Assembly: GCF_038397725.1 (NCBI RefSeq)
Contig: NZ_CP151634.1
Span: forward strand, 1,426,001-1,490,000
Reading direction: 5' to 3'
DNA: 64,000 nt
From: Microbacterium sp. LWO13-1.2
GTDB taxonomy: Bacteria; Actinomycetota; Actinomycetes; Actinomycetales; Microbacteriaceae
Numbering within the stretch: position 1 is the first letter of the stretch; each line of letters begins with the position of its first letter. The notes under the pieces were generated by a model. That model had not been told where the DNA came from, did not search any database, and worked only from the letters and a program-made list of their open reading frames with translations. The position numbers and the translations under genes are program-made. Positions 2,567 through 33,689 of this stretch are shown here, in pieces.

Positions 2567-2596
2567 TTGACAGTATAGACATCCGATGTTTACACT
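2567..2596 (+). promoter_or_regulatory. promoter of the L-fuconate dehydratase operon
   Basis: TTGACA at 2567-2572 and TACACT at 2591-2596 are separated by 18 bp and precede the GTG at 2644 by 47 bp. The -35 box is a perfect consensus match. Confidence 0.6.
2572..2596. promoter_or_regulatory. 25-bp palindromic operator in the L-fucose divergon
   Basis: The left half AGTATAGACATC (2572-2583) and right half GATGTTTACACT (2585-2596) are inverted repeats matching at 10 of 12 positions around a single centre base (2584). It fills the spacer and covers the -10 box of the promoter, the position expected for repression. GntR/FCD-type regulators often bind sites of this shape, but no fucose regulator gene is visible in the window. 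Confidence 0.6.
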
Positions 2597-4912: not shown

Positions 4913-4923
4913 AGGAGAAACAC

Positions 4924-11337: not shown

Positions 11338-11363
11338 ACCGGGAGTAGCAAAAGGAGCAGGCA

Positions 11364-12553: not shown

Positions 12554-15178
12554 TCAGCCGATGCGCTCCCACGCGCTGCGCTTCGCACCAGGCAGGTCTC
12601 CGCGCGACCACCACTTGGCGCGCCAGAGGTGGCCGTCGTGCTCGGCGATGTCGCCTGCCACGAAGGTGCGCGTCAGGGTCCACTTCGCGACGCCTGTCGG
12701 CGCCGTGACGATCTCCTGCCAGGGGCCCCGCTTCGCGCCGGGCACGTCCTTGCGGCTCCACCATGAGGCGAGCCACGTCGAACCGTCGAAGGAGACTAGG
12801 TCTCCCTCGGCGTACGTCGCCGAGGAGCTCCACGGGGCGGGCTCGGTGGCCGCTGCGTCATTCCCGACCACGATGCCTCGGCCGTTCGTCGCGACGTAGA
12901 CCCGGCCGAACACGTCGGGATCCCCTTCGATGTCGGCGCCGAGATAACCCCACTGGTGGTCGTCGTCGTTGATGCGGATCCAGGTGTCGCCACCGTCGGT
13001 CGACCGGAAGACGCCGCGCACGCCGTCTCGGCGCGCGGCGGAGTAGATCGCGGGACGTGTCTCGCCCGGTGCGGCCTTGCCGAAGCCGATTGTGTCCGCC
13101 CCGTCGAATCCATCGACCTGTTGCCAGGTGCCGCCGCGGTCCGTCGAACGCCACATGCCGTAGGCGCCGTCCGGATCTCCGCCGGCCAGCCAGACATCTC
13201 CGATGTGCCCCGGCATCGCGCCCAAGCGCACGTTGCCCTCGGCGGGGAGGGTCCCCGCGTTCACGGCCGCGAAGCTCGATCCGCCATCCTCGGAGCGGTA
13301 GAACGTGCCCGCTGCGAAACCGTAGACGATGTCGCGATCGACGCGATCCGCTTCGACCCTCGCTCCGGCAGGCAGCCCCGCGACCGGGACCCAGGTCGCG
13401 CCGGCATCCCGGGTGACCTGCGGTGCGGCACTCGCCGGCGCCCAGACTGCTCCGCCGCCATCGGCCGTCACCGCCACGCTGCCGCCGCCGGTCGAGCCGG
13501 GGACCGCGGGAGAGGAGAACCAGGTGTCGCCGCCGTCGCTCGAGAACGCGGCGAGGTGGGCGCCGGTGCCGTCGGTGCCGGCACGGGCGATGACGCCGTC
13601 GGCCAGACCCGCCGCGTCCACAGACGTCCCGCCCCCGAAATACGGGGCTTGGAACGTGTTCGTGATGGTGTCGATGTCGTCGTGCACGAAGCCGCCGAGG
13701 TCGCCCATCGCCGAGACGAGGTCGACGTCGCCGAGCGGGGCGGCGAGCCCCTGGATGGACGTCTCCTCGATGCCGTCGGCGGATGGAGCGAGGTGGATCC
13801 GACCGCCGGGCTCATCCCAGGCGGTGAGGTCGTCGGCGCGGTAGATCGTCGCGCCGGTGCCGTACATGAGCTCGTCGGAGTTGTGCGGGTCGATTTCGAG
13901 GGACGACACCATCCAGCCCAGCTTCGGCGTCGGCTCGCTCCCCGGGACCGGTTCGCCGACCTCTTTGCCGAACGCGAGCCACGGCACGCCGTCGATGGAC
14001 TGCTCATAGCGGCGATCGAGCGAGACGGCGCCGTCGCTGCCGGTGACGTAGTCCCAGATCGGCGACCAGGTCTCGCCGCGATCCGTGCTGCGGAAGATCA
14101 GGATGTCGGGCCACCACTGGATCTGCGATGCAACCATGATCGTGTCCGGGTCGTTCTGGTCGACGGTCAGGCCGCCGAAGCCGAAGTCGCCGCCGGCCGG
14201 ACGCTGCGTGGGCGTGATGTCCGTCCACGTGCCGGTATCGATCCCGTATCGCCATACCTCGCCGTCGGACCCGTCGTAGGGACCGCTGGTGTCGGTGGTC
14301 GTGATGTACAGGAATCGACCGCTCTCGTCGATCACGCCGCGCTGGGGGAGGAACCCGGTCGGGGCGCCCTCGACCTCGGCCCAGGTCGCGCCGGCGTCGT
14401 CGGAGCGGTAGAGGATGTGCTCCTTGTCGGCGACAGCCGTGAAGATCGTCGAGGTCGCGGTGCCCGCGGGGGAGGACGCCGCGTCGAACGCGGTCCACAG
14501 CACGCCGAGCTCGGAGGTGAGGTACGAGTTCTCGGAGGCGGGATCGGGTGCGAAATCGCCCACGTTCGGGAAGCTCTCCACGCGCTGGAAGCTCACGCCG
14601 GCATCGGTCGAGCGCCAGAGTCCCTGTCGCTGTTCGGCGCCGAAATAGAGCACGTCGTTGTCGTTCGGGTCGATCTGCAGGCGTTCGCTGATTCCGCGCC
14701 CCGGCATGTTGCCGCCGACCTTGAAGGGCAGCGGCGTCGCCTGCCAGGTCTCCCCGGCGTCGGAGGACCGAAGCACAGCGCCGTTGTTCGGGTCCCAGTC
14801 GTTCGTGTACATGCCGACCGCGGCATACACCCGTGCGGTGTCGACCGGGTCGGTGGCGAGGCTCAGCACGCCGAGCCAGTTCCAGTCGTCCCAGCCGACG
14901 TGGTCGAGGAGGGGCACCCAGCGGTCGGCCTCCCGATCGAGCCGGTACGCGCCGCCGATGTCGGTGCGCGCGTACACCAGCCCCTCTTCGGTGGGGTTGT
15001 AGATGATGCCTGGCACGTATCCGCCGCCGGATATCTCGACGTTCGACCAGTCGTATTCGGGACCGGTCTGTTCCGGCGTGCTCGCAGAAGCGGGCCCGCT
15101 CGCCACCACCGCCCCCGCGGCGATCATCGCCCCCGCGGCGAGGATCGCCGTCGTGGTTCTCATCCTGACCTGCAACAT
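12554..15178 (-). CDS. secreted GH74 xyloglucanase with two C-terminal carbohydrate-binding modules
   Basis: Protein of 874 aa that should cut the glucan backbone of xyloglucan outside the cell. A signal peptide covers about residues 1-33, with twin hydrophobic stretch and cleavage after ASA. The body is a double seven-bladed propeller with many BNR-type turns (SSDAGETW, STDRGETW, STDGGDTW). Candidate catalytic Asp residues are in YARTDIGGAYR (Asp73) and MGDLGGF near residue 490. The C-terminal 100 residues hold two modules with the pattern WSRxDxPGAKRxxW, resembling CBM5/12 chitin/cellulose-binding domains. ATG 15178 has GGAG 7 nt upstream; the longer frame would include the LacI-type operator. 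It lies downstream of the CE7 esterase. Confidence 0.9.
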   Translation of the reverse strand: MLQVRMRTTTAILAAGAMIAAGAVVASGPASASTPEQTGPEYDWSNVEISGGGYVPGIIYNPTEEGLVYARTDIGGAYRLDREADRWVPLLDHVGWDDWNWLGVLSLATDPVDTARVYAAVGMYTNDWDPNNGAVLRSSDAGETWQATPLPFKVGGNMPGRGISERLQIDPNDNDVLYFGAEQRQGLWRSTDAGVSFQRVESFPNVGDFAPDPASENSYLTSELGVLWTAFDAASSPAGTATSTIFTAVADKEHILYRSDDAGATWAEVEGAPTGFLPQRGVIDESGRFLYITTTDTSGPYDGSDGEVWRYGIDTGTWTDITPTQRPAGGDFGFGGLTVDQNDPDTIMVASQIQWWPDILIFRSTDRGETWSPIWDYVTGSDGAVSLDRRYEQSIDGVPWLAFGKEVGEPVPGSEPTPKLGWMVSSLEIDPHNSDELMYGTGATIYRADDLTAWDEPGGRIHLAPSADGIEETSIQGLAAPLGDVDLVSAMGDLGGFVHDDIDTITNTFQAPYFGGGTSVDAAGLADGVIARAGTDGTGAHLAAFSSDGGDTWFSSPAVPGSTGGGSVAVTADGGGAVWAPASAAPQVTRDAGATWVPVAGLPAGARVEADRVDRDIVYGFAAGTFYRSEDGGSSFAAVNAGTLPAEGNVRLGAMPGHIGDVWLAGGDPDGAYGMWRSTDRGGTWQQVDGFDGADTIGFGKAAPGETRPAIYSAARRDGVRGVFRSTDGGDTWIRINDDDHQWGYLGADIEGDPDVFGRVYVATNGRGIVVGNDAAATEPAPWSSSATYAEGDLVSFDGSTWLASWWSRKDVPGAKRGPWQEIVTAPTGVAKWTLTRTFVAGDIAEHDGHLWRAKWWSRGDLPGAKRSAWERIG

Positions 15179-15227
15179 TCGCACTCCTTCGTGTCGATGG
15201 CGGACCGCACGGTCCGCCGCGACTTTA

Positions 15228-15241
15228 TCGAAGCGCTTCGA
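15228..15241. promoter_or_regulatory. LacI-type operator upstream of the GH74 gene
   Basis: Perfect palindrome TCGAAGCGCTTCGA, 50 bp before the GH74 start and after the CE7 stop. It matches the sites at 16284-16353 and 25657-25670, so this enzyme probably belongs to the same regulon. Confidence 0.7.
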
Positions 15242-15283
15242 ATCGCACAAGAGTCGAGTCGTGACAAGCGACCACCGACGTGA

Positions 15284-16258
15284 TCAGGCGCGCGAGGCGA
15301 GCCACTCCGCCTGGCGCAGCCACTGCACGGTCTGGCCGCCTTCATGGCCGTTGAACTCGTAGACCTCGATCTCGGCATCCGCAGAGCCGCAGTGATTGAA
15401 CGCCGCGAACACGCTCGAGGGCAGTACGACGGCATCCATCAGCGCGACGGAGAACAGCACCGGCGCCGAGATGCGGCGGGCGAAGTTCACCCCGTCGAAG
15501 TACGACAGGGTGCCGAAGACCTCGTTCGTCACTCCGCGGTGCACGGCGAGGTAGCGCTCGATCTCTTTGAAGGGATGCTCCGGCGTCAGCTCCACCGAAC
15601 GGCGGAAGTGGCAGAGGAACGGGACGTCGGGCATCGCCGCGACGACACCGGGATGCAGTGCGGCGGCGGCCAGGCTGATCCCACCGCCCTGGCTGCCACC
15701 GGTGACGCTGATCCGGCTCGCATCGACGGCTGGCAGCTGCGCCACCGCGTCGATCAGCAGCGCGGCGTCGGTGAACACGCGGCGGTAGAAGTAGGTCTCG
15801 GGGCTGCGGATGCCGCGGGTCATGAACCCGGGAACCGAGCCGTCCGAGCCGTGCGGGTCGGGGGTGTCGCCCCCGGTGCCCCATCCGCTGCCCTGGCCCC
15901 GGGTGTCCATCAGCACGTGCACGTAGCCGGCCGCCGCCCACTGCAGACGTTCGCCCGGAACGCCGCGACCTCCGTTGTAGCCGATGTACTCGACGACCGT
16001 CGGCAGGGGGGAATCCGAGTGCGGGCGGGTGATCCATGCGCGGATCGGTTCGCCACCGAAGCCGCTGAACGTGAGGTCCTCGACGATCAGCTGCGTGATC
16101 GGAGTCGTCACCGCCTGCAGCTGCGGTGCGGTCGCGAGCGCTCTCGATTCCGTGAGGGTGCGCGCCCAGAAGTCATCGAAATCCGCGGGTTCGGCCACAT
16201 CGGGGCGGAAGGAGCGGAGCTGGTCGAGGGGGAGATCAGTGAAGGTCACCGGCGTCAC
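15284..16258 (-). CDS. CE7 acetyl xylan esterase / cephalosporin C deacetylase family
   Basis: Alpha/beta hydrolase of 324 aa, the typical CE7 length, without signal peptide. The nucleophile elbow is TGGSQGGG, the RGQGSGW oxyanion region precedes it, and the catalytic His is in FNGHEGGQ near the C-terminus. CE7 enzymes remove acetyl groups from imported oligosaccharides; xyloglucan galactosyl residues and xylan are natural acetylated substrates. The GTG at 16258 has no clear Shine-Dalgarno; an in-frame GTG at 16249 is an alternative. It diverges from the GH43-importer operon across two LacI-type operators. Confidence 0.9.
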   Translation of the reverse strand: MTPVTFTDLPLDQLRSFRPDVAEPADFDDFWARTLTESRALATAPQLQAVTTPITQLIVEDLTFSGFGGEPIRAWITRPHSDSPLPTVVEYIGYNGGRGVPGERLQWAAAGYVHVLMDTRGQGSGWGTGGDTPDPHGSDGSVPGFMTRGIRSPETYFYRRVFTDAALLIDAVAQLPAVDASRISVTGGSQGGGISLAAAALHPGVVAAMPDVPFLCHFRRSVELTPEHPFKEIERYLAVHRGVTNEVFGTLSYFDGVNFARRISAPVLFSVALMDAVVLPSSVFAAFNHCGSADAEIEVYEFNGHEGGQTVQWLRQAEWLASRA

Positions 16259-16283
16259 ATTAGCGCAAGATTTTTTGGCAAGG

Positions 16284-16353
16284 CGAAGCGTTTCGATTTT
16301 CGGCCTTGTGCTTGCGGCGGTTCCGCTTTACTCTCTAAGTCGAAGCGTTTCGA
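16284..16353. promoter_or_regulatory. promoter and paired LacI-type operators of the GH43-importer operon
   Basis: Operator 1 CGAAGCGTTTCG is at 16284-16295 and operator 2 TCGAAGCGTTTCGA at 16340-16353, centres 57 bp apart. Between them TTGTGC (16306-16311), 17 bp and TACTCT (16329-16334) form a + strand promoter, so operator 2 covers the transcription start. Operator 1 may also act on the divergent CE7 promoter. Confidence 0.7.
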
Positions 16354-16418
16354 CAGATCTCACCCGAGGATCGACAGGGGCGCGCGAGCGATCCAACCCA
16401 AAGGCGAGTGGAGCCCCG

Positions 16419-17912
16419 ATGACCGATGCCGTGAACTCCGCGGAGCATCCTGTAGTCCCCGGGTTCCACCCGGACCCGACGATCTGCCGGGCCGGAGACA
16501 CGTACTACCTCGCGCACTCATCGTTCGAGTATTCGCCGGGTGTTCCCCTCTGGCGGAGCACGGATCTCACCACGTGGGAGCAGGTGGGTCACGCCCTCGA
16601 CGGTGATGAGAACCTGCGCCCGGGCATCGCCGGACCCGGTGGAGGCGTGTACGCGCCGACGCTTCGTCATCACGCCGGACGATTCTGGATGATCACCACG
16701 AACGTCTCAGGAAAGGTCGGCCAGCTGGTCACCTCGGCCCCGAGCATCGAGGGTCCGTGGTCGCCGGGCATCGTGATCGAGGGCGCCGTCGGCATCGATC
16801 CCGACCTCGCCTGGGACGACGAGGGCACCTGTTACATGACGTTCAGCTCGAACATGTCATCGGCTCCGGGAATCGCCCAGGTGCGAGTGGACCTGGAGAC
16901 GGGCACAGTGCTCGACGAGCCGCGGACCGTCTCGCGCGGCACCGGACTGGCGTACCCCGAAGCTCCGCATGTCTTCCGGCGCGGCGACTGGTGGTACCTG
17001 CTCTACGCCGAGGGCGGCACGGAGCGCGGGCACACGGTGGGCATCGCCAGGGCGAAGACCCCGACGGGACCGTTCGAACTTCATCCGCACAATCCGATCT
17101 TCACCCGCCGCAGCACCACCTTCCCGGTGCAGAACGCCGGCCATGCCGACCTGATCGAGCGCCTCGACGGCTCCTGGGCGATGGTCTATCTCGGCGTCCG
17201 TCCGCGCGGAGCCACCCCTCAGTTCCACGTGAACGGTCGTGAGACGTTCCTCGCCGGCATCGACTGGGTCGACGACTGGCCTGTGGTCGTCCCGGACCGC
17301 TTCACCTTCACCCCCGCACCGACCGGGTTCACCGACCGCTTCGACGGACCGCTGCACCCCCGATGGACCTCTCCGGGCTTCGCCCCCGCCGAGATCGCCG
17401 AGAGCACACCGGGCGGCATCCGGATCGCCGTCGAGGATGACGCGCCCAACGGGGCACCGTCGATGCTCGCGACCCGCACCCTCGACGCGCACTGGCGATT
17501 CTCGGCGACGACCGAGGCCTCCGAGGCGGCCGCGGTGCGCGTGCGCATGGACGATCGGCACTGGGGCGAGGTCCGCATCGACTCCGGTCGCGCGCGGGCC
17601 GCACTTCACATCGGCGGGCTGACCCGCACCATCGACGACGACCGCACCGCGGCGTCCGGTGCGCGGTCGCTGATCATCGAATCCCGACCAGCGACGTCCG
17701 GGGGCCCGGACGACCTCGTCTTCGCCATCGCCGACGCCGACGGGGAGCGGGAACTCGCGCGCCTGGACGGACGGTATCTGTCGACCGAGGTCGCCGGTGG
17801 GTTCGTGGGGCGCACGGTCGGTCTGCGCGCGGCGAGCACAGCGGCGCTGTTCACGGACGTGGCGTACGAGCCACGGGAAGCCGCCAACGAGAACGCGGAG
17901 GTTCACTCATGA
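16419..17912 (+). CDS. cytoplasmic GH43 beta-xylosidase / alpha-L-arabinofuranosidase
   Basis: Glycoside hydrolase of 497 aa without signal peptide. The five-bladed propeller starts with GFHPDPTICR, carrying the catalytic base Asp, and YPEAPHVF holds the general acid Glu. A C-terminal beta-sandwich from about residue 310 matches GH43 subfamilies 11/12 (beta-xylosidase or arabinofuranosidase on oligosaccharides). ATG 16419 is chosen because GGAG lies 5 nt upstream and it follows the promoter; the frame is open further left but crosses the operators. It is coupled to the next permease gene (ATGA). In the xyloglucan locus it may remove arabinose or xylose side chains. Confidence 0.88.
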   Translation: MTDAVNSAEHPVVPGFHPDPTICRAGDTYYLAHSSFEYSPGVPLWRSTDLTTWEQVGHALDGDENLRPGIAGPGGGVYAPTLRHHAGRFWMITTNVSGKVGQLVTSAPSIEGPWSPGIVIEGAVGIDPDLAWDDEGTCYMTFSSNMSSAPGIAQVRVDLETGTVLDEPRTVSRGTGLAYPEAPHVFRRGDWWYLLYAEGGTERGHTVGIARAKTPTGPFELHPHNPIFTRRSTTFPVQNAGHADLIERLDGSWAMVYLGVRPRGATPQFHVNGRETFLAGIDWVDDWPVVVPDRFTFTPAPTGFTDRFDGPLHPRWTSPGFAPAEIAESTPGGIRIAVEDDAPNGAPSMLATRTLDAHWRFSATTEASEAAAVRVRMDDRHWGEVRIDSGRARAALHIGGLTRTIDDDRTAASGARSLIIESRPATSGGPDDLVFAIADADGERELARLDGRYLSTEVAGGFVGRTVGLRAASTAALFTDVAYEPREAANENAEVHS

Positions 17913-18910
17913 CCTTGACGATCGGGAACACGACCGCGGTCCAATCCGTGGTGATCAAGGACTCGCCCACCTCGCGCCGACGCCGTGGGCGCCGCCAGCG
18001 ACAGCAGGCCGGCGGCCGCCGTTCGATGGGGATGTTCCTGTGCATCCTGCCCTTCCTGGTGCTGGTCTTCCTCTTCTCCTACTTCCCGCTCTACGGCTGG
18101 ATCTATTCGCTGTTCGACTACCGGCCGGCCCTCGGGCTCGCCGGCAGCGAGTTCGTCGGACTGCAGTGGTTCGAGCTCCTCGTCAGCTCACCGACGCAGG
18201 TGGCCCAGATCGGGCAGGTGCTGCTGAACACGCTCGCCATCAGCTTCCTCGGCATCGCGACCTCGATCCTCCCGCTGTTCTTCGCGATCTTCCTCAACGA
18301 GGTGCGTGCTCCGTGGTTCCGCAACGCCGTGCAGACGCTGACCACACTCCCGAACTTCATCTCGTGGGTGCTCGTCTACATGATCGCGTTCTCGCTGTTC
18401 TCCAGCTCGGGCCTCGTCAACAACGTGCTCAACGACGCGGGGCTCATCACGCAGCCGCTCAAGTTCCTCGACAGCGATCAGAACGTCTGGCTCACGATGA
18501 CGTTGTGGAGCGTCTGGAAGGGCCTCGGCTGGGGCGCGATCATCTACCTCGCCGCGATCGCCGGCATCGACCAGTCGCTGTACGAGTCGGCCAAGATCGA
18601 CGGCGCCGGACGATTCCAGCTGATGCGGTACATCACCATTCCGCAGCTGATGCCGACCTACCTCGTGCTGCTGCTCCTGTCGGTCGCGAACATGCTGAAC
18701 AACGGCATGGAGCAGTACTTCGTGTTCCAGAACGCCTTCAACAAGGAGACCATCCAGGTCCTCGATCTGTACGTCTACAACATCGGCATCACGGGCAACA
18801 GCCTGTCGATGGCGACCGCGATCGGCATGCTGAAGAGCATCATCTCGGTCGCTCTCCTGCTCACCGTCAACTGGATCGCCAAGCGCGTCCGCGGCCAGTC
18901 CATCGTCTGA
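17909..18910 (+). CDS. sugar ABC transporter permease, LplB type
   Basis: MalF-like permease of 333 aa with a basic N-terminal tail of about 40 residues and six helices. The EAA loop is ESAKIDGAGRFQ. The sequence style, with FFAIFLNEVR and a C-terminus ending in a lysine/arginine pair, is that of the LplB/YtcP/YtcQ importer group, which carries oligosaccharides from plant cell walls. Its start overlaps the GH43 stop as ATGA. With the following permease and binding protein it should form the importer for xyloglucan oligosaccharides. No ATPase gene is present, so a shared MsmK-type ATPase encoded elsewhere is likely. Confidence 0.93.
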   Translation: MTLTIGNTTAVQSVVIKDSPTSRRRRGRRQRQQAGGRRSMGMFLCILPFLVLVFLFSYFPLYGWIYSLFDYRPALGLAGSEFVGLQWFELLVSSPTQVAQIGQVLLNTLAISFLGIATSILPLFFAIFLNEVRAPWFRNAVQTLTTLPNFISWVLVYMIAFSLFSSSGLVNNVLNDAGLITQPLKFLDSDQNVWLTMTLWSVWKGLGWGAIIYLAAIAGIDQSLYESAKIDGAGRFQLMRYITIPQLMPTYLVLLLLSVANMLNNGMEQYFVFQNAFNKETIQVLDLYVYNIGITGNSLSMATAIGMLKSIISVALLLTVNWIAKRVRGQSIV

Positions 18911-18923
18911 GAAGGAGACACCC

Positions 18924-19844
18924 ATGAGCAGCACGACCTTCGGGGTCCGCCGTCGCAGCAGTGGCGACATCATCTTCGCGATGACGAACTACACGGTCTT
19001 CATCGCGCTCGCCTTCCTGTGCGCCTACCCGTTCTACTTCCTGATCATCAACTCGATCAGCGCCAACGACGTCTCGGCCCTCGGGCAGGTGCGCTGGTTC
19101 CCTGTCGATCTCCACCTCGAGAACTACTCGCAGGTGCTGCAGTTGAACGGCCTCCCGATGGCGGCCGTGGTCAGCATCGGGCGCACGGCGATCGGCACCT
19201 TCGCCGCCGTCCTCGCCTCCGCCTTCCTCGGGTTCATGTTCTCGCAGAGCAAGATGTGGGGCCGCCAGTTCTGGTACCGCTCCGTCATCATCACCATGTA
19301 CTTCAGCGCCGGACTCATCCCGGTGTTCATCGTGATGAAGACGCTCGGCCTCACCAACAACTTCTGGGTCTACGTGCTGCCGTTCATCGTGCAGCCGTTC
19401 TTCATCATCCTGGTGAAGACGTACGTCGAGGCGATGCCCGAGTCGCTCCAGGAAGCGGCCGAGATGGACGGCGCGAACATCGTGCAGATCTTCTTCCGCA
19501 TCTTCCTGCCGAACATGACCCCGATCCTCGCGACGGTCGCTATTTTCTCGGCGGTCGCCCAGTGGAACTCGTTCCAGGACACGTTGATCTACATCACCGA
19601 TCAGAGTCTGTACACCCTGCAGTACCTGCTCTACATGTTCATCAATCAGGCCAACAGCCTGGCTCAAGCCGCTCAGAACTCCGGCGGCAACCTGACCGGC
19701 ATCATCACGGCGGCGACCACACAGACGCCGACGTCGATCAGGATGACCGTCTCCGTGCTGGTCGTGCTGCCGATCATCTTCATCTATCCCCTGTTCCAGC
19801 GCTTCTTCGTGAAGGGCATCATGCTGGGCGCCGTCAAGGGCTGA
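18924..19844 (+). CDS. carbohydrate ABC transporter permease, YtcP type
   Basis: MalG-like permease of 306 aa. The helix after the short N-terminus reads FLCAYPFYFLIINSIS, the EAA loop is EAAEMDGANIVQ, and the C-terminus ends in MLGAVKG, a hallmark of the YtcP group. GGAGA precedes the ATG by 6 nt. It pairs with the permease directly upstream, 13 bp away. The substrate is inferred from the enclosed glycosidases. Confidence 0.93.
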   Translation: MSSTTFGVRRRSSGDIIFAMTNYTVFIALAFLCAYPFYFLIINSISANDVSALGQVRWFPVDLHLENYSQVLQLNGLPMAAVVSIGRTAIGTFAAVLASAFLGFMFSQSKMWGRQFWYRSVIITMYFSAGLIPVFIVMKTLGLTNNFWVYVLPFIVQPFFIILVKTYVEAMPESLQEAAEMDGANIVQIFFRIFLPNMTPILATVAIFSAVAQWNSFQDTLIYITDQSLYTLQYLLYMFINQANSLAQAAQNSGGNLTGIITAATTQTPTSIRMTVSVLVVLPIIFIYPLFQRFFVKGIMLGAVKG

Positions 19845-19875
19845 CGACGTCACTGCATCCAAGAAAGGAAATGCA

Positions 19876-21624: not shown

Positions 21625-21632
21625 CCCTCCTC

Positions 21633-21674
21633 GCAGAACGCCCCCGGGACCATGTGGTCCCGGGGGCGTTCTGC
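21633..21674. terminator. strong bidirectional terminator
   Basis: A perfect 20-bp stem (21633-21652 with 21655-21674) with a 2-nt tip, placed between the convergent binding-protein and DUF624 genes. Confidence 0.88.
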
Positions 21675-21687
21675 GTGGGGTTGCGGG

Positions 21688-23294: not shown

Positions 23295-25627
23295 CGGTTC
23301 TCCCTCGGCTCGATGAGAGCGGGCTGCCCTGCAGTGAGGACGACGGATCGGATGCCGATCCCCGGCCCGCTCATCTCTATTGTGGTGTTCCCATCGCTGC
23401 GCAACCGTACTTTCACGATTTCGCCGTGTTCCCAGTCGATGTCGACGGTCACGCCCCCTCGTGCGCGCAACCCGCGCACGCTTCCGACCGGCCAGTCCGG
23501 TGGCAGTGCCGGCAGCAGCAGCAGCATCCGCTCGTCATGGGACTGCAGCAGCGCCTCGGCGACACCGGCGGTGAGGCCGATGTTCCCGTCGATCTGGAAC
23601 GGCGGATGCGCGCTGAATCCATTCGCATAGAGACCGCCGCGGTGGCCCCCGCCGTCGGAGACCGCAGGACGCAGCGCCATCGTGATCTGGTCGAGCACCT
23701 GCGCGCCATCCCCGAGGCGTGCCCACATCGCGGTGCGCCAGGCCAGTGCCCACCCCGTCGACTCCCGTCCACGGGAGATGATCGAGGCTGCCGCAGCGGC
23801 GGCGAGCTCAGGCGACCGGGCCGGCGTGATCTGCGCAAGCGGGAACAGGCCGACGAGATGAGACAGGTGCCGGTGGTCGGGCTCGGTGTCCTCGCGGGGG
23901 CGGTCCCATTCCCGCAGGGTGCCGTCGGCATCGACCTCGGCGTCGGGAAGGGCGGTGGTCAGGGTGAGCAGCTCGGCGATCCACGGCTCGTCGATGCCGA
24001 GTGCCATCGAGGCCTGCACGCACGCCGTCGCGAGGGCCCGCAGCAGCGCGACGTCCATCGTCGAGGATTCGCCCACGCCGGTCGCGGTGCCGTCATCGGC
24101 GAGGAAGTGGTTCTCCGGTGACGTCGAGGGGCTCGTGTACGTGCGGGTGCCGTCATCCCGGATCCATGACAGCGCGAACTGTGCGGCGGAGGCGAGCACC
24201 GGCCACGACTGCATGCGCAGCTCATCGATGTCGCCGGTGAACGCGTAGCGCTCCCAGAGGTGCAGGCTCAGCCAGACCCCGCCCATCGGCCAGAACGCCC
24301 AGGCAGGGTCGCCGTGACCGGCCCCGACCGGCGCAGCGTGCCCCCAGGCGTCGGAATTGTGGTGCGCCACCCAGCCGTCCGCACCGTGCAGCTCACGTGC
24401 GACGGTGCTGCCGGATCCGGCCGCGAGCCGCCGGATGAAGCGCAGCAGTGGGGTGTGGCATTCGCTGAGCGCGGTGGTCTCGGCAGCCCAGTACGCCATC
24501 TGCAAGTTGATGTTCGTCGTGTACGCGCTCGACCATGGGCCGGGAAGCTCGGCATTCCACAGGCCCTGCAGCGTGAGGGGCAGTCCGGTGTGCCGGGACG
24601 ACGACAGCAGGAGGTAGCGACCGTAGTGGAAGAGCAGGGCGACGAGGCCGGGGTCCGGCCGCTCCTGCGCTGCCGCGATCCGCTGTTCGGTGCTGAGCTC
24701 CATTGCACCGTCCGCAGAGGGCAGGGTCAAGGCACAGCGCAGATACAACTCCTGATGCGCGGCGACGTGCGTCCCGTACAGCCGCGCGGACTCGGCGACG
24801 GCATCCGATCCGACCTGCCCCAGCACGGCGACCGCGCGTGTCGGAGCATCGGCCTCCGACTCCGGCTCTCCGGAGATCGACGGCGCGGTCGCGGTGCCGA
24901 TGACGAAGACGTGGGTGCGGGCGAGCTCGGTGACCAGCGTTCCGGCCTGGACGGTCGCCGGGCCCGCCGACCGCACGGCGATCGCGCCGGTGCGTCCGTC
25001 GCCGTACCGGACCGGCTCCGGCGGGGTCTCGTGCCCCGGAGCCACATCGATCGGCAGCAGCAGCTCGCGGACGATTCCGTCGGGGATGCCGGCATCCGGC
25101 CCCGCGGAGCGGAGCAGGCTCCCGACACGCAGCCGCACGCGCACCGGAGCATCCGCCTCGATCCGGTGCACGATCGCCCCGCCGGCGGAGTCCGCCCATG
25201 TCGTATGGCGCACGCCGGCGTACTCGAGATGGGCGGTCGCCGTCGTGAGGTCGAGACGGCGACGGCATCCGTCGTCGAAGGTTCCGTCGACCTCGACGTC
25301 GATCCAGCCGAGCGGCAGGAAGGCCTGCACCCACGGCGTCTGCTGTCGCTGGAGGAGCCGTTCGGCTGCGGCGGCATCGCCGCCGGCGATGGCAGCGCGC
25401 ACCGCGTGGAGAGCATCCGGACCGCGATCGACCACGCCGGCGAGCGGGTCCTGGTCGGGGAGGCCGGACCAGGCGGTGATGTCGTTCAGCCACAAGCGCT
25501 CAGCGCCGGGGCCGCCCTGACAGGTCGCTCCGCGCACCCCGTTGCCGACCGGGAAGGCATCGGTCCATCGCGCGGCCGCGCGATCGGAGCGCAGCATGTG
25601 AAGCGCTTCGCGAAGCATCGTGGACAT
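23288..25627 (-). CDS. GH95 alpha-L-fucosidase (or alpha-L-galactosidase)
   Basis: Enzyme of 779 aa without signal peptide. The N-terminal sandwich has [10 protein letters not shown] and LNDITAWSG. The (alpha/alpha)6 catalytic part has the paired Asn motif [11 protein letters not shown], the Glu-bearing SPENHF and the Asp-bearing [11 protein letters not shown]. These correspond to the catalytic residues known from Bifidobacterium 1,2-alpha-L-fucosidase. GH95 inverting enzymes release L-fucose from 1,2-linkages such as the fucosyl-galactose of xyloglucan. The ATG at 25627 would have a 6-nt leader; a GTG at 25633 sits exactly 6 nt after the -10 box and could be a leaderless start. First gene of an operon with LacI and DUF624. 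Confidence 0.9.
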
Positions 25628-25671
25628 CGGCACCCGGCTAGTATATGGTCTCGTTGTTGAAGCGCTTCGAC
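25600..25671. promoter_or_regulatory. divergent GH95/GH42 promoters with two LacI-type operators
   Basis: The operator GTTGAAGCGCTTCGAC (25656-25671) sits at the start of the GH42 transcript. A second core GAAGCGCTTC (25600-25609) lies in the first codons of the GH95 gene, centres 59 bp apart. On the + strand TGGACA (25621-25626), 17 bp and TATGGT (25644-25649) form a promoter. On the - strand TATACT (25645-25640) is the GH95 -10 box, so the two -10 boxes overlap. Confidence 0.65.
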
Positions 25672-25693
25672 AATCGCAGAGATGAGAGAGAAA

Positions 25694-27736
25694 ATGTCGA
25701 CGGAGACATCCGCCACCGGTTCGTTCGGTGCCGTGACGGCCGAACGAGGAATCTGTTTCGGAGGCGACTACAACCCCGAGCAGTGGGACTCCTCGGTCTG
25801 GCGTGAAGATGTCGAACTGATGCAACGGGCCGGCGTGAATCTCGTGACCGTCGGGGTGTTCAGCTGGGCCCGCATCGAGCCGTCTCCTGGCGTCCGCGAC
25901 TTCGCCTGGCTCGATGAGGTGCTCGATCTGTTGCACGCCGCCGGCATCGCCGTCGACCTGGCCACACCTACGGCATCGCCGCCGCCGTGGCTCGGCATCC
26001 GCTACCCGGAGACGCTTCCTGTCGATCAGGACGGCGTTCGGCTGGTGCCGGGTTCACGCAACCAGTTCTCTCCTGCGTCACGCGTCTACCGCGAGCACGC
26101 GCTGGCGATCTCGCGTGACCTCGCAGCGCGCTACGCCACCCACCCTGCGGTGCGCATGTGGCACGTCGGCAACGAGTTCGGTCAGGTGGACTTCGGCGAC
26201 GAGGCGGCACGCGAGTTCCGGCGCTGGCTGCACACGAGGTACGGCGGCGTCGACGGAGTCAACACAGCCTGGGGGACGGCGTTCTGGTCGCAGCACTACG
26301 CCGACTTCGATGAGATCCTGCCGCCGCGCCGGGCGCCCTACCTGATCAACCCGACGCAGTCGCTGGACTTCCGCCGCTTCACCTCCGACCTGTTGCGTGA
26401 GTGCTACCGCGAGATCCGCGACGCGATCCGCGAGGCCGGAGCGACGCAGCCCGTGACCACCAACTTCATGGGGTTCTTCGCACTCGTCGACTACCGGTCC
26501 TGGGCAGATGACGTCGATGTCATCGCTGACGACCAGTACCCCGATCCCGCCGACCCGCAGTCGGCCGTCGACATCGCACTCACACAGGATCTGATGCGCT
26601 CGCTCGGCGGCGGGCGACCATGGATCCTGATGGAGCAGGCCACGACGGCGATCTCGTGGCGCTCCCACAATCTGCCGAAGAGCCCGCAGAAGGCGCGCCT
26701 CGATTCGCTGCAGGCCGTCGCCCGCGGCGCGGACGGCGTCTGCTACTTCCAGTGGCGGGCCTCCAGCGCCGGGGCCGAGCGCTTCCATGCGGCGATGCTC
26801 CCGCACGCCGGTGCCGACACCGACCTGTTCCGCGGCGTGTGCCGGCAGGGTGCGGATCTGCGGCTCCTGCGTCCTGTGGTCGGGTCGACGGTCGAGGCCG
26901 AGGTGGCGATCGTGTTCGACTGGTCGTCGTGGTGGGCCGCGGAAGAGCCGGCCCGCCCCACGGAACGGCTCGTCGCGATGGAGCAGCTCGGCCGCTGGTA
27001 CCGCCAACTCTGGCGGAGGGGTATCGCCGTCGACGTGGTGGCGCCCGACGCGGATCTGGACCGCTACCGGCTCGTACTCGCACCGCAGCTGTACATCACC
27101 GAACCGGATGCCGCTGCGGCTCTGGAGCGCGCGGTGGAGCGTGGTGCGCACCTCGTCGTCGGCCCGTTCAGCGGCGTTGCCGATCGCAATGCCCACGTCC
27201 TCATCGGCCGCTCGCCTGCGCTCCTGCGCGAGGTGATGGGCGTGAGCGGCGAGGAATGGTGCGCACTTCCCGATGACGATGCCGAACTCGTCGGCGACTG
27301 GTGGCAGCAGACGGACGGTGCTGCCGAAGCGTCGATTCTCGGCGAGCGGCTGCGGACGGACGGTGCCGAGGTGCTGCTGTCCTACGCCGACGGTCCTCTC
27401 GCGGGTCTGCCGGCAGTCGCGCGGAACTCCCGCGGAGCCGGCGCCGCCTGGCACCTGGGCGCTGTCGTCTCGGATGCTGTCCTGTCGAAGATCCTCGGCG
27501 AGGCCGCCGCTGCCGCCGGAGTGCGCGGCGTCGTGCCGGAGCTCGATGTCCTGCCGGACCTCCTGGAGGCCGTGCAGCGCGGACCGGTGCTCTTCCTGCT
27601 CAACCACGGGACCGAGGAGCAGCGCATTCCGGTGCGCCCCGGACTCGTGGACCTCCTGACCTCGGAGGCGACGGATCACGTCGTCACTGTGCGCCCCGGC
27701 GAAGTCCGGGCCTTGATCGAAAGGGCGGACTCGTGA
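25694..27736 (+). CDS. GH42 beta-galactosidase, cytoplasmic
   Basis: Protein of 680 aa, the normal GH42 length, without signal peptide. The barrel starts with [10 protein letters not shown]. The acid/base Glu is in HVGNEFGQ, and the nucleophile Glu is in [12 protein letters not shown]. Trimerisation and C-terminal beta domains follow. In this locus it should remove the beta-galactosyl residue of galactosylated xyloglucan oligosaccharides after the fucose has gone. The ATG at 25694 is preceded by a purine-rich AGAGAG; an ATG at 25682 is possible. It heads the GH42-GH31-GH3 operon, each gene coupled to the next. Confidence 0.92.
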
Positions 27737-30012
27737 AGTTCACCGACGGCTACTGGCTGACCAGGCCGGGTTTCACTCCGCTCTTCGGGGTCGAAGTCGA
27801 TGACATCCGTGTCGACGAACAGGCGGGCACGCTCACCGTGTACGCCGCCACCGCCGGCATCCGCCACCGCGGCGACACCCTCAATCGTCCGATGCTGACC
27901 ATCACGTTCTCGGCACCGTCGCCCGGCGTCGTGCGCACCAGGGTGCAGCGCCATGCGGGTGGTGTGCACCCTCGCCCCGACTTCGCGATCGCCGCCCAGC
28001 CGGGGTTCCTCCCGGTCGTGAGCCTCGACGACGAGTACGGCGTGCTCGACGCCGACGGACTCCGCGTTCGGGTGCGTCGCACCGGTCAGTGGCAGATCGA
28101 CTTCGAGCAGGGCGACACCGTGATCACCCGCGCCCTGCCCCGGTCGAGCGGTCACATCTCGGGGCCGGACGGCGCCTGGGTGCATCAGCAGCTGACGCTC
28201 GAGCCGGGGGAGCGCATCTATGGTCTCGGCGAGCGGTTCGGCGCGCTCATCAAGAACGGTCAGACCGTCGACACCTGGAACGCCGATGGTGGCACCTCCA
28301 GCGAGCAGTCGTACAAGTCGATCCCGTTCTACCTGTCGAGCCGGGGCTACGGCGTCCTCGTCGACAGCCCCGACAACGTCTCCTTCGAGGTCGGTTCCGA
28401 GGTCAACACCCGCGTGCAGTTCTCCGTGCCGGGCGAGACGATCGACTACTTCGTGATCGCCGGGCCGACCCCGAAAAACGTGCTGCGCCGCTACACCGGA
28501 CTCACCGGACGCCCGGCCAGGGTGCCGGCCTGGTCGTTCGGGTTGTGGCTGACCACGTCGTTCACCGCCGACTACGACGAGGCGAGCGTCAACGCGTTCA
28601 TCGACGGCATGGCCGAGCGCGATCTGCCGCTGAGCGTGTTCCATTTCGACTGCTTCTGGATGCGCGAGTACCAGTGGACGGACTTCGAGTGGGACCCGCG
28701 GACGTTCCCTGACCCCGAGGGGCAGCTCGCGCGCCTGCACGACCGCGGGCTCAAGGTCTCGGCGTGGATCAATCCGTACATCGCGCAGCGCTCGCGGTTG
28801 TTCGAGGAGGCGCGCGAGCGCGGCTTCCTGCTGACCCGGACCGACGGCAGCGTCTGGCAGTGGGACCTGTGGCAGGCGGGAATGGGCATCATCGACTTCA
28901 CGAACCCGGAGGCCACCGATTGGTACGTCGAGCACCTCGAGCGACTGATGTCGCAGGGCGTCGACACGTTCAAGACCGACTTCGGTGAGCGGATCCCGTC
29001 CGAGGGCGTCGTGTGGCATGACGGCTCCGACCCCGCCCGCATGCACAACTACTATCCGTACCTCTACAACGAGGCCGTATTCCGCGCGCTCGAGCGGCGC
29101 TACGGCGAGGGGCAGGCCATCGTGTTCGCGCGCTCGGCGACGGTGGGCACGCAGCAGTTCCCCGTGCACTGGGGCGGAGACAGCGACTCGACGTTCCTGT
29201 CGATGGCGGAGTCGCTGCGGGGCGGGCTGTCGCTGGCGATGAGCGGCTTCGGCTACTGGAGCCATGACATCGGCGGCTTCGAGGGCACGCCGGACGCCGG
29301 CGTCTTCAAGCGCTGGCTCGCGTTCGGCCTGCTCTCCTCGCATTCGCGGCTGCACGGCTCCTCGTCGCTGCGGGTGCCGTGGGCGTTCGACGACGAGGCG
29401 GTGGAGATCACCCGGCAGTTCACGCGGTTGAAGATGCGGCTGATGCCGTACCTGATCGGCGCCGCCGAAGAGGCGCACCAGACCGGTACCCCGATGATGC
29501 GTCCGATGGTGCTCGAGTTCCCCGAGGACCGGAGCGGCTACGACGCCGATGCGCAGTACATGCTCGGCGATTCGTTGCTCGTCGCGCCGGTCTTCAGCGA
29601 GCAGGGCGACGTCGAGTACTACCTCCCCGAGGGCGACTGGACGTCGTTGCTCGACGGCGGGCTGCAGGACGGGCGTCGCTGGCTGCGCGAACGCCACGGC
29701 TTCGACTCGCTGCCCGTGCGCGTGCGCCCCGGCACCGTGCTGCCGTGGGGCGCACGCGATGATCGCCCGGACTACGACTGGGCAGACGGTGTCACTCTGC
29801 GGTGCTTCGCCCTGCCGGACGGCTTCGACCGCACGGTCACCGTACTCGGTGCCGATGGTGCCTCGACCGCGTTCCGTGTGCGGCGCGAGGGCGACCGGAT
29901 CACCGCCGGCTCCACCGATGCCCGCGCGCCGTGGTCGCTGCAGGCCGGCGACGTCTCGGCCGATGCGGCGGGCGCCGGAGACATCACCATCACGATCGAG
30001 GAGACCCGATGA
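27733..30012 (+). CDS. GH31 alpha-xylosidase, cytoplasmic
   Basis: Protein of 759 aa closely matching YicI-type alpha-xylosidases. The nucleophile Asp lies in TFKTDFGERIP, the KTDFGE signature of alpha-xylosidases rather than alpha-glucosidases, and the acid/base Asp in WGGDSDSTF. It removes the alpha-1,6-xylosyl unit from the non-reducing end of xyloglucan oligosaccharides. The GTG at 27733 overlaps the GH42 stop and has AAGGGCGG upstream. The reading frame extends far to the left inside GH42 but is not coding there. Confidence 0.93.
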   Translation: MKFTDGYWLTRPGFTPLFGVEVDDIRVDEQAGTLTVYAATAGIRHRGDTLNRPMLTITFSAPSPGVVRTRVQRHAGGVHPRPDFAIAAQPGFLPVVSLDDEYGVLDADGLRVRVRRTGQWQIDFEQGDTVITRALPRSSGHISGPDGAWVHQQLTLEPGERIYGLGERFGALIKNGQTVDTWNADGGTSSEQSYKSIPFYLSSRGYGVLVDSPDNVSFEVGSEVNTRVQFSVPGETIDYFVIAGPTPKNVLRRYTGLTGRPARVPAWSFGLWLTTSFTADYDEASVNAFIDGMAERDLPLSVFHFDCFWMREYQWTDFEWDPRTFPDPEGQLARLHDRGLKVSAWINPYIAQRSRLFEEARERGFLLTRTDGSVWQWDLWQAGMGIIDFTNPEATDWYVEHLERLMSQGVDTFKTDFGERIPSEGVVWHDGSDPARMHNYYPYLYNEAVFRALERRYGEGQAIVFARSATVGTQQFPVHWGGDSDSTFLSMAESLRGGLSLAMSGFGYWSHDIGGFEGTPDAGVFKRWLAFGLLSSHSRLHGSSSLRVPWAFDDEAVEITRQFTRLKMRLMPYLIGAAEEAHQTGTPMMRPMVLEFPEDRSGYDADAQYMLGDSLLVAPVFSEQGDVEYYLPEGDWTSLLDGGLQDGRRWLRERHGFDSLPVRVRPGTVLPWGARDDRPDYDWADGVTLRCFALPDGFDRTVTVLGADGASTAFRVRREGDRITAGSTDARAPWSLQAGDVSADAAGAGDITITIEETR

Positions 30013-32531
30013 CCGCCGAGCCGTTCCGCGACACGTCGTTGACGGTCGCCCAGCGTGCACAGGACCTGCTGAGCCGGCTCACCGCCGACGAGCGCATCGC
30101 CATGCTGCACCAGGCGGCCCCGGCGGTCGAACGGCTGCAGGTGTCGGCATTCCACACGGGCTGCGAGGCGCTTCATGGGGCGGCGTGGCTCGGGACGGCG
30201 ACCGTCTTCCCGCAGCCGGTCGGCATGGCGGCGACGTGGGATGTCGACCTCATCGAGCGCATCGGCGAGGTGGCCGCGACCGAGGTGCGCGCCAAGCGCG
30301 CGGAGAACCCGCTGGTCAGCCTGAACGTGTGGGCGCCGGTCGTCAACACGCTGCGCCATCCTGCCTGGGGACGCAACGAGGAGGGGTACTCCGAGGACCC
30401 GCACGTGACCGGTCATTTCGGGGCCGCATATTCGCAGGGGCTGCGCGGAAGGCACGAACGCGTCTGGCGCACGGTTCCCGCGCTCAAGCACTTCCTCGGG
30501 TACAGCAACGAGACGGACCGCTCGGCGACCTCATCGGAGATGTCGCTGCGCACCCTGCACGAGGAGGAGCTGCCGGCCTTCCGCGACGCGATCGAGCGCG
30601 GTGTCGCCGGAGGCATGATGCTCGCCTACAACCAGGTCAACGGCACGCCCGCCCACACTCAACCCGAACTCGTCGACGAGGCGCGCTCATGGGCGCCCGG
30701 TTCGCTCGCCGTGGTGTCGGATGCCGGCGCGCCCACCTTCGTGGTGAAGGTGCAGCGCGCGCAGCCGGACCACGAGCACGCCGCCGCGGCCCTGGTGCGC
30801 AGCGGCATGGACTCGTTCACCGATGACGGCGCCGACGCCGAGCCGACGATCGCGCACGTCCGCCGTGCGCTCGAGGCAGGACTGCTGAGCCAGGACGACG
30901 TCGACCGCGCGGTCGCCCGCGTGCTCGAGATGCGGGTGCGAAGCGGTGAGTTCGACGGTGCGGACGACCCCTATGCCGGCATCACTGCCGACGACATCGA
31001 CGCGCCGGCATCCCGTGCCCTCGCCAGAGAGGTCGTCGCCCGCTCGGTCGTGGTGCTGCGGAACGACGCTGCGCTGCTGCCGCTCGCGGCTCCCGCATCC
31101 GTGGCTGTCGTCGGACCGCTCGCCGATCTGGTGCTCACGGACTGGTACGCCGGGACGCCGCCCTATGCCGTGGGCATCGCACAGGGAATCGGTGCCCGTT
31201 ACCCCTCGGCCGCCGTGCGCGTCGAGACCGGCGCCGACACGATCGCCCTGCGCGACCTCGCGTCCGGGCGCTACGTCGCCGCCGATCACGACGGCGCGGC
31301 AGTGGACGCGTCGGCGGATGCTGCCGGCGAGGCCGCGATGTGGGACCTCACCGACTGGGGCGACGGCATCCTGACCCTGCGCTCGCATGCGAGCGGGCGG
31401 CTGCTCACCGGCGGCGCGTGGCCGATGCGGGCCGACGCCGATCGCGTCGGGGGCTGGGTCGTGCAGGAGACCTTCCGGAAGCACGTGCACGCGGACGGGT
31501 CGTGGTCGCTGCTGCACCTCGGCTCAGGGCGCTGGGTCAAGGTGTCGCGCGAGGTCGGGCTTCTGGTGGCGGAGGGCATCACCGTCGGCGACGCGTCGCG
31601 CTTCGCCGCGCGAGTGATTCGCTCAGGGCAGGCCGCGGTCGTAGAGGCCGCCGCCGAGGCGGACGTCGTGATCGTCGCGGTCGGCAACGACCCGCACCTC
31701 TCGGGGCGCGAGACCGAGGATCGCCCGCATCTGATGCTGCCGGAGTCGGCGGTCGCCGTCTGGCGCGCCGCGCGCGAGCAGAACGCCGACGCGGTGCTCG
31801 CGATCGTGTCGAGCTACCCGTACGTGCTCGGGGAGGGCATGGCGGATGCCGGCACCATCGTCTGGTCGAGTCATGGCGGACAGGAGCTGGGCAACGGCGT
31901 CGCCGACGTGCTCAGCGGTGATGTGCCGCCGAGCGGTCGGCTCGCGCAGTCGTGGCCGACGGATGCCGCTCAGGCGGGTGACCTGTTCGACTACGACACG
32001 CTGCGGCAGGGGGCGACCTATCGGCACCAGCCGTCGCCGTACGCCTTCGCGTTCGGGCACGGGCTGACGCTGAGCGAGGTCGCCTACCTCGGAGTGACGC
32101 TCGACGACCCCGCGGTCGAGGCGCCGGCTCCGTCGCATCGGCATGCACCGCTGGTCGCGACAGACCCGTCGGACGCATCGGTTCGGACCACCGTTCGCGT
32201 CGCGAACCGCGGCGCGCGCGTGGCGGAGGAGCTCGTGCAGCTGTACGCGCTCGCTCCCTCGGATCTGCCGATTCCGACGCCGCGCCGCGTGCTGGTCGGC
32301 TACCGTCGCGTCAGGCTCGAGCCGGGGGAGGAGCGCGACGTCGAGATCGGGTTCGACCCGGCGCGGCTCGCGGTCTGGGACGACGGCATCCGCGTGGAGG
32401 GCGCGGTCGACGACTGGCTGCACCAGGGAGCGTTGCGCGTGCAGGCGGGCGCGTATCGGGTCGCGGCGGGGCCGTCGGCTGACGACCTCTCGGTGGGGGC
32501 GGTGCTCCAGGTGACCGAGGGTGGTGTCTGA
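30009..32531 (+). CDS. GH3 beta-glucosidase with a beta-trefoil-like insertion, cytoplasmic
   Basis: Protein of 840 aa without signal peptide. The first GH3 domain shows PALKHFLGYS and the nucleophile Asp in VVSDAGA. The alpha/beta sandwich carries the acid/base region SGRETEDRPHL, and a fibronectin III-like domain ends the protein. Residues about 410-540 are an insertion with repeated patterns of the type L-(x)-SGRYVAA and HLGSGRWVKV, resembling a fascin/ricin beta-trefoil, at the point where many GH3 enzymes carry a PA14 domain. It would remove glucose exposed by the alpha-xylosidase. Its ATG overlaps the GH31 stop as ATGA. Beta-xylosidase activity is an alternative. Confidence 0.9.
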   Translation: MTAEPFRDTSLTVAQRAQDLLSRLTADERIAMLHQAAPAVERLQVSAFHTGCEALHGAAWLGTATVFPQPVGMAATWDVDLIERIGEVAATEVRAKRAENPLVSLNVWAPVVNTLRHPAWGRNEEGYSEDPHVTGHFGAAYSQGLRGRHERVWRTVPALKHFLGYSNETDRSATSSEMSLRTLHEEELPAFRDAIERGVAGGMMLAYNQVNGTPAHTQPELVDEARSWAPGSLAVVSDAGAPTFVVKVQRAQPDHEHAAAALVRSGMDSFTDDGADAEPTIAHVRRALEAGLLSQDDVDRAVARVLEMRVRSGEFDGADDPYAGITADDIDAPASRALAREVVARSVVVLRNDAALLPLAAPASVAVVGPLADLVLTDWYAGTPPYAVGIAQGIGARYPSAAVRVETGADTIALRDLASGRYVAADHDGAAVDASADAAGEAAMWDLTDWGDGILTLRSHASGRLLTGGAWPMRADADRVGGWVVQETFRKHVHADGSWSLLHLGSGRWVKVSREVGLLVAEGITVGDASRFAARVIRSGQAAVVEAAAEADVVIVAVGNDPHLSGRETEDRPHLMLPESAVAVWRAAREQNADAVLAIVSSYPYVLGEGMADAGTIVWSSHGGQELGNGVADVLSGDVPPSGRLAQSWPTDAAQAGDLFDYDTLRQGATYRHQPSPYAFAFGHGLTLSEVAYLGVTLDDPAVEAPAPSHRHAPLVATDPSDASVRTTVRVANRGARVAEELVQLYALAPSDLPIPTPRRVLVGYRRVRLEPGEERDVEIGFDPARLAVWDDGIRVEGAVDDWLHQGALRVQAGAYRVAAGPSADDLSVGAVLQVTEGGV

Positions 32532-32595: not shown

Positions 32596-32618
32596 TGATG
32601 TCGGAACAGGGGGATCGG

Positions 32619-33629: not shown

Positions 33630-33689
33630 CCTCGCCCGTCGCCCGACCCGCCACCCTCTGGCCGTCGCGAGTCTTCGGAGAGGCTTTTC

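Follow-up and report, generated by a model that had tools for sequence, protein, structure and literature searches.

Experimentally tested xyloglucan importers of Gram-positive bacteria were found for Ruminiclostridium cellulolyticum and Anaerocellum bescii. The accessible part of the R. cellulolyticum report describes a binding protein that bound XXXG at 3.65 nM and an importer needed for growth, and mentions comparable clusters in distant Gram-positive bacteria, with alpha-fucosidase genes marked in a figure legend (PMC4780118). The xyloglucan-binding protein Athe_2052 of A. bescii is assigned to cluster G in the available sections of its report (PMC12710961), and the Bifidobacterium XG-1 islands (B. 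hapali) are published, in the available text, as a prediction (PMC8406136). Here we analyse a stretch of 64,000 nucleotides from Microbacterium sp. LWO13-1.2 (NZ_CP151634.1, positions 1,426,001 to 1,490,000), called the window throughout. Its positions 12554-32531 hold a block of glycoside hydrolase (GH), carbohydrate esterase (CE) and ATP-binding cassette (ABC) importer genes which, with high confidence, we read as a xyloglucan regulon that would cut the polymer outside the cell, import the oligosaccharides whole and trim them inside, equipped for fucose and probably for acetyl groups. The strategy is already known; the locus is a variant of it, with a LacI palindrome and the fucose and probable acetyl equipment. 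Among the literature matches listed, none dealt with a xyloglucan locus of Microbacterium, with the palindrome of such a locus or with xyloglucan as a substrate of CE7.

The R. cellulolyticum locus Ccel_2451-2458 (XygS/XygR) resembles the block in its two permeases and related binding protein, its cytosolic GH42, GH31 and GH3, and its import of whole oligosaccharides followed by trimming inside. Genome L225 shows the gene order published for R. cellulolyticum; its importer genes are 58, 57 and 36% identical to those of the window, and its GH31 is 50% identical. The R. cellulolyticum locus has a two-component system, whereas the window locus has LacI and a palindrome instead, and its presumed regulon adds GH95, CE7, GH43 and GH74. 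The two GH3 enzymes are distant, 29% identical over part of their length.

The A. bescii locus Athe_2052-2054, in the sections available, shares a large cluster G binding protein, ABC permeases and a GH31 (PMC12710961). The modelled binding protein of the window was nearest to cluster G folds in fold comparisons. It gave nothing usable in sequence searches of the PDB, and 9PMY was not among the fold matches listed, which favour no one ligand. The B. hapali locus L090 has a relative of the binding protein (53%) with GH3, GH31, GH43 and GH42 relatives; unlike the window, genome G332 gave no GH74 match, and L090 is a candidate for the XG-1 island.

Among Gram-negative bacteria, the Xanthomonas citri xyloglucan utilisation locus (XyGUL) is similar in that it handles fucosylated, acetylated xyloglucan with GH74, GH31, a fucose-specific GH95 of the Thr type and an acetyl esterase. 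It has GH35 and CE20 where the window locus has GH42 and CE7, and its uptake is reportedly Gram-negative in type, with outer-membrane receptors. The GH43, GH31 and GH3 enzymes of the Bacteroides ovatus XyGUL are said to be active on xyloglucan, and BoGH43A/B and BoGH3B were among the PDB matches of the block enzymes. In contrast to the B. ovatus locus, no outer-membrane receptor pair was found in the block, where uptake would be through the ABC importer.

Results

A LacI-type palindrome, TNGAAGCGYTTCNA, occurs at three places in the block: 5' of GH74 and in the two divergent promoters, CE7/GH43 and GH95/GH42. Allowing one mismatch, the window has 7 strand matches where 0.26 are expected, a number reached in 0 of 100 shuffles. 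In the 4.0 Mb genome the exact sequence is confined to those three promoters of the 20-kb locus. A LacI gene in the cluster and a palindrome common to its promoters are both present, and the locus LacI is predicted to bind that palindrome.

The binding protein of the importer was found in 37 of 295 genomes of the genus. Full-length GH74 is present in 9 of these 37 and in none of the 258 importer-negative genomes (p=3e-9, with relatedness not removed); a partial GH74 in the importer-negative genome G201 is excluded from the nine, and would bring the count to 10/295. In seven of the nine, GH74 is unlinked, lying on another contig or at least 150 kb from the importer. The palindrome nevertheless stands 5' of GH74 in all nine genomes, including the seven. 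A looser pattern, TNGAARCGYTTCNA, was searched in 35 of the 37 importer-positive genomes (the fragmented G215 and G266 were omitted) and occurs at 79 places. The 75 listed places divide into 45 no more than 20 kb from the importer, 8 before GH74 and 22 elsewhere. One of the 22 (G202:C8) is in a LacI/GH42 promoter on a separate contig, and some others precede a GH1 gene (L168, L170) or a second ABC importer with GH31 (L167, L172).

Beyond the genus sample, GH74 occurs in 18 of the 46 importer-bearing genomes from named records (of 80 loci). Thirteen of these GH74 genes are actinobacterial; eight have the palindrome no more than 160 nt from the aligned start and two have it at about 500 nt; one of the 13, G295, shares coordinates with G075 and is probably the same genome. 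The Firmicutes importer often neighbours a pair of proteins of about 515 and 600 amino acids, two-component-like by size and start. The nearest named locus is that of M. aurantiacum (L034), with a binding protein 96% identical.

The preliminary description of this DNA had named the enzyme families of the block and taken GH74 to be the only secreted enzyme. Pfam, NCBIfam and PDB sequence searches agree on GH74, CE7, GH43, the ABC importer, LacI, GH95, GH42, GH31 and GH3, all where they had been placed, with several gene starts revised (Table 1). By hydropathy and by eye, GH74 is indeed alone among the enzymes in having an N-terminal hydrophobic signal; GH42, GH31 and GH3 all lack signal peptides, and the binding protein has a lipoprotein-type start. 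The functions that follow, like all those given here, are predicted from sequence. The catalytic part of GH74 scored 814 bits to 5jwz and 813.5 to 6p2o, both named xyloglucanase. GH31 scored 911-922 bits to YicI chains and 1172 bits to the NCBIfam alpha-xylosidase model (cut-off 606), GH95 479 bits to the Pfam catalytic domain, and GH42 463 bits.

In the PDB search, 1vlq, which bears the name acetyl xylan esterase / cephalosporin-C deacetylase, matched CE7 at 343 bits. The AXE1 domain of CE7 spans the whole length, and RGQ, GGSQGG and HE, which we take to be the CE7 motifs, are all present. CE7 relatives adjoin the palindrome in further species too, in genomes that either lack GH74 or have it unlinked (L174, L175, L176, L207, L208 and L209). 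The top PDB sequence match of GH3 is a fungal beta-xylosidase. Its C-terminal domain carries an insert at about residues 400-535 with a weak ricin-type lectin match, found in relatives of several genera (17 of 24 rows aligned). Its product may be glucose or isoprimeverose, neither sequence nor fold lists favouring one ligand.

In GH95, the Asn, Asn, Glu and Asp positions, which we take in part to be the catalytic ones, are invariant among the 15 aligned sequences (of 21 rows). Some of their roles are given in the available sections of a Xanthomonas study (PMC8245568). The distribution of the gene is linked to that of L-fuconate dehydratase, which was found in 27 of 27 importer genomes with an orthologous GH95 and in 2 of 10 without (p=1.2e-6), the copy being more than 70% identical in 23 of the 27. 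Orthologous here means about 54% identity or more; the G038 and G202 copies near the importer (38-44%) were counted apart, and G215, whose GH95 is on another contig, was counted as in-locus (26/26 without it). When any GH95 near the importer is counted, the figures are 28/29 and 1/8 (p=6e-6). On the binding-protein tree (34 of the 37 genomes and one outgroup) the presence of an orthologous GH95 requires at least five changes; an alignment of the binding protein took in 39 sequences.

The genes of an oxidative L-fucose pathway lie at 899-5343, comprising L-fuconate dehydratase (642 bits to the solved enzyme 2hne), dehydrogenases and a hydrolase. The set resembles the Xanthomonas campestris-type pathway in its dehydratase, short-chain dehydrogenase/reductase (SDR), FAA hydrolase and FucU, and differs in that the lactonase candidate lies apart. 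No lactonase gene was seen among the genes at 899-5343; the candidate (Amidohydro_2, L187:3854-4807) lies outside the window, some 12 kb upstream of the dehydratase, and a GntR/FCD regulator is also upstream of the window. The xyloglucan palindrome was absent from all eight dehydratase loci read. Those loci share a pair of ACATCNGATGT sites, which may be operators of another regulator; they are near relatives (at least 94% identity), and one site is in coding DNA. The window has 2 such matches where 1.74 are expected with up to one mismatch, and 47 of 100 shuffles reach 2, which is chance level; what speaks for the sites is solely their recurrence in the eight related loci.

Table 1. Features of the xyloglucan block and the neighbouring L-fucose genes, in window coordinates
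Feature	Position	Strand	Remark
SDR dehydrogenase, presumed L-fucose pathway	899..1666	-	no xyloglucan palindrome
FAA-type hydrolase, presumed L-fucose pathway	1648..2508	-	
ACATCNGATGT inside hydrolase gene, second of pair	2414..2424	.	in 8/8 close dehydratase loci
ACATCNGATGT in fucose divergent promoter	2579..2589	.	in 8/8 close dehydratase loci
L-fuconate dehydratase, enolase superfamily	2644..3942	+	
Aldo-keto reductase, presumed L-fucose dehydrogenase	3926..4912	+	
FucU-type L-fucose mutarotase	4912..5343	+	start approximate
GH74 endo-xyloglucanase, predicted, exported; C-terminal CBM5/12 (two stretches)	12554..15163	-	revised start (about 15163), inferred from signal peptide
Palindrome TCGAAGCGCTTCGA 5' of GH74, presumed LacI operator	15228..15241	.	
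CE7 acetyl esterase, predicted, signal-less	15284..16258	-	
Near-match GCGAAGCGTTTCGA, one mismatch, CE7/GH43 divergent promoter	16283..16296	.	
Site TCGAAGCGTTTCGA, CE7/GH43 divergent promoter	16340..16353	.	
GH43 with GH43_C2 domain	16419..17912	+	start revised from 15984; PDB relatives 5z5d beta-xylosidase and BoGH43A/B arabinofuranosidases
ABC importer permease, LplB type in the preliminary description	17909..18910	+	
ABC importer permease, YtcP type in the preliminary description	18924..19844	+	
Lipoprotein, predicted oligosaccharide-binding	19876..21624	+	modelled fold nearest cluster G proteins
Likely two-way terminator: inverted repeat of 44 bp separating convergent genes	21632..21675	.	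read by eye
DUF624 protein	21688..22293	-	
LacI-family regulator, presumed palindrome reader	22290..23294	-	putative link to palindrome
GH95, probable alpha-L-fucosidase	23288..25627	-	revised start
Core GAAGCGCTTC within first GH95 codons	25600..25609	.	
Site TTGAAGCGCTTCGA, GH95/GH42 divergent promoter	25657..25670	.	
GH42 beta-galactosidase, predicted	25694..27736	+	revised start
GH31 alpha-xylosidase, YicI type, predicted	27733..30012	+	revised start
GH3 with inserted stretch, weak lectin match; putative glucosidase, xylosidase or isoprimeverose-releasing enzyme	30009..32531	+	revised start

The block has at least four transcription units, arranged round two divergent promoter regions. From the first, CE7 and GH74 run leftward, GH74 with its own palindrome, while GH43, the two permeases and the gene of the binding lipoprotein are read rightward. 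From the second, GH95, LacI and DUF624 run leftward and GH42, GH31 and GH3 rightward, their ends and starts overlapping. A gene for an importer ATPase was not found in the block. An open reading frame (ORF) at 21652-22773 (+) was rejected as a gene; it is antisense to DUF624 and LacI and has no family match. A megablast search of 15200-16500 against plasmids gave no match.

Variants of the locus and further palindromes were seen in other genomes. The binding protein is present in tandem copies in L034, L062, L066 and L093, and in one copy in the window's own genome. G201 has no importer match; its locus L213 has shortened GH3, GH42 and GH95 pieces by LacI, one palindrome and, further on, a GH74 fragment, and is apparently a decaying xyloglucan locus. 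L178, in G038, is a diverged version with GH31, LacI, GH42 and GH95 relatives (38-58%) and the palindrome; it lies about 9 kb from the importer and adjoins a rhamnogalacturonan lyase gene. Distant from the main locus, the palindrome stands just 5' of GH1 genes at L168:3448-4884 (by Pfam) and L170:3804-5240 (by eye, from a similar N-terminus). In L167, L169 and L172 a second importer with a solute-binding protein (SBP) adjoins the palindrome or a palindrome-flanked LacI relative; the L167 and L172 importers include a GH31 (59-60%). The palindrome is also upstream of a 620-amino-acid protein at L171:5850-7712, whose N-terminal motif presumably places it near GH127.

Directly 3' of the block, at 32595-43291, is a second sugar locus with LacI, SBP, two permeases, GH43, DUF624, two proteins with arabinofuranosidase C-terminal domains and a second GH43. 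It has palindromes of its own, GCAACGTTGT at 32582 and ACAACGTTGT at 33813, where 0.6 matches are expected with up to one mismatch, and likely targets arabinan or arabino-oligosaccharides. Between the fucose genes and the block, 8191-12497 holds a GntR/FCD regulator, MmgE/PrpD, a phosphoenolpyruvate (PEP) mutase family protein and citrate synthase, likely a methylcitrate cycle set. Upstream of the fucose genes, L187:9080-14777 (its last gene being window 10-777) encodes a LacI, a flavin adenine dinucleotide (FAD) oxidoreductase and an importer of an SBP and two permeases, a candidate L-fucose importer. Divergent from that LacI is a gene for an 884-amino-acid protein that has an apparent export signal and matches no Pfam family (L187:6314-8968). 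Beyond about 43.3 kb the window was covered by composition, ORF and tRNA lists and pattern scans.

Discussion

The evidence read directly from the genomes consists of gene content, export signals, the palindromes and their distribution, and gene co-occurrence. It sustains the proposal, made in the preliminary description, of a xyloglucan substrate that is cut outside, imported and trimmed inside: the palindrome is confined to the locus in this genome and found before unlinked GH74 in others, GH74 occurs with the importer, and the importer and enzymes are homologous to those of a tested xyloglucan-oligosaccharide system. That the substrate is fucosylated likewise finds support in the intact active site of GH95 and in the distribution of this enzyme and L-fuconate dehydratase, which in most genomes are either both there or both missing. 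Acetylation is a narrower case, for which the CE7 family and the position of its gene at the palindrome can be adduced; CE7 would act on acetylated xyloglucan, and the target of GH43 is putative. The preliminary description had assigned glucose to GH3, which neither sequence nor fold decides, and had given GH43 no role.

Several observations weigh against a xyloglucan regulon of this kind. Identity between the binding protein and its likely R. cellulolyticum counterpart is only 36%, that of the permeases being 57-58%, and a closer relative from the genus Ruminiclostridium (60%) lies by GH42 without GH31 in 20 kb. A reversed-pattern control gave 4 and 3 strand matches in the window's own genome against 3 and 2 for the palindrome, and 66 places in the 35 genomes against 79. 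Because the control is as numerous, it is the location of the palindrome and not its number that forms the signal. The palindrome was not found upstream of 3 of the 13 actinobacterial GH74 genes or of any of the five in Firmicutes, and none of the survey p-values is corrected for relatedness. Most importer-positive genomes (28/37) are without full-length GH74, so the importer does not depend on GH74. For the fucose part, in G038 a GH95 (44%) stands about 9 kb from the importer but there is no dehydratase match, which makes this genome the exception when any nearby GH95 is counted. Only three of the five GH95 changes are forced by well-supported branches, and the clustering of GH95 on the tree was matched by 16 of 500 shuffles. 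Among importer-negative genomes the dehydratase is found in 35 of 42 with GH95 and 77 of 216 without. It also accompanies any GH95, at 64/77 against 77/218. As the pairing is also seen outside the locus, the link is to GH95 in general.

The many importers without GH74, and the scatter of GH74 over the binding-protein tree, suggest that the inner part of the locus may be a scavenger of xyloglucan oligosaccharides freed by other microbes, GH74 being optional in this strain. Here, however, GH74 does stand behind the palindrome, and it was the only cutter counted in the survey; GH5, GH9, GH12, GH16 and GH44 were not searched. We regard scavenging as possible, if doubtful, and it is compatible with the regulon reading for the window's own strain.

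The preliminary description had also linked the locus to the adjoining L-fucose pathway. The genes are real, yet their closeness is not itself evidence, because they lack the palindrome and only two of the 27 genomes, G000 and G075, have their best dehydratase within 30 kb of the importer. The pathway could instead serve another source, such as the substrate of the ABC importer that lies directly upstream with its own LacI and the FAD oxidoreductase, and be a chance neighbour. The dehydratase is present in 112 of 258 importer-negative genomes, which fits this view. Against it, presence of the dehydratase follows that of GH95 in importer genomes, by either count, through several separate changes, and we think an unrelated source rather unlikely.

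In a general hemicellulose side-chain or xylan/arabinan locus, with GH74 an accidental neighbour, acetylated (arabino)xylo-oligosaccharides would be the substrates of CE7, GH43 and a xylosidase-like GH3. The names of the CE7 relatives in the PDB, the beta-xylosidases heading the PDB matches of GH43 and GH3, and the locus with arabinofuranosidase-type domains directly 3' would suit it. We find it very improbable, as the same palindrome stands at GH74 even where this is unlinked, the importer tracks GH74, GH31 is a YicI-type alpha-xylosidase, and the next locus is equipped with a LacI of its own and with different palindromes, of the ACAACGTTGT type.

Equally hard to credit is that GH95 is an alpha-L-galactosidase, releasing L-galactose rather than L-fucose: it has Thr (TTNIN) at the disputed position, as does the alpha-L-galactosidase BACOVA_03438 where the fucosidase FucOB has His, but orthologous GH95 is kept together with L-fuconate dehydratase, and the Thr-bearing Xanthomonas xyloglucan GH95 is, in the available sections of its report, very specific for L-fucose, with T395H leaving the preference unchanged (PMC8245568). 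The Thr was rejected as proof of a galactosidase on that fucose specificity.

In the xyloglucan regulon that we favour, exported GH74 would cut xyloglucan to short branched oligosaccharides, its CBM5/12 modules perhaps holding it on the wall. The lipoprotein and two permeases would take these up whole, presumably powered by an ATPase from elsewhere in the genome. Inside the cell, CE7 would strip acetyl, GH95 fucose and GH42 galactose, GH43 would probably free side-chain arabinofuranose or xylose, and GH31 and GH3 would dismantle the backbone from the non-reducing end; these targets and the order of trimming are predictions. The locus LacI would repress the GH74, CE7/GH43 and GH95/GH42 promoters via TNGAAGCGYTTCNA until released by an imported product. 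Freed L-fucose would enter the separately controlled oxidative pathway at 0.9-5.3 kb, with the lactonase further upstream. More tentatively, the oligosaccharides may be imported still acetylated and fucosylated, to meet a cytosolic CE7 specialised for xyloglucan; the GH3 with its insert may release isoprimeverose for GH31 to split; and GH95 with the fucose pathway may be an optional module, kept or dropped together.

The defined palindrome allows likely xyloglucan genes to be listed across many Microbacteriaceae and Promicromonosporaceae, and such a listing would predict which strains are able to use fucosylated forms.

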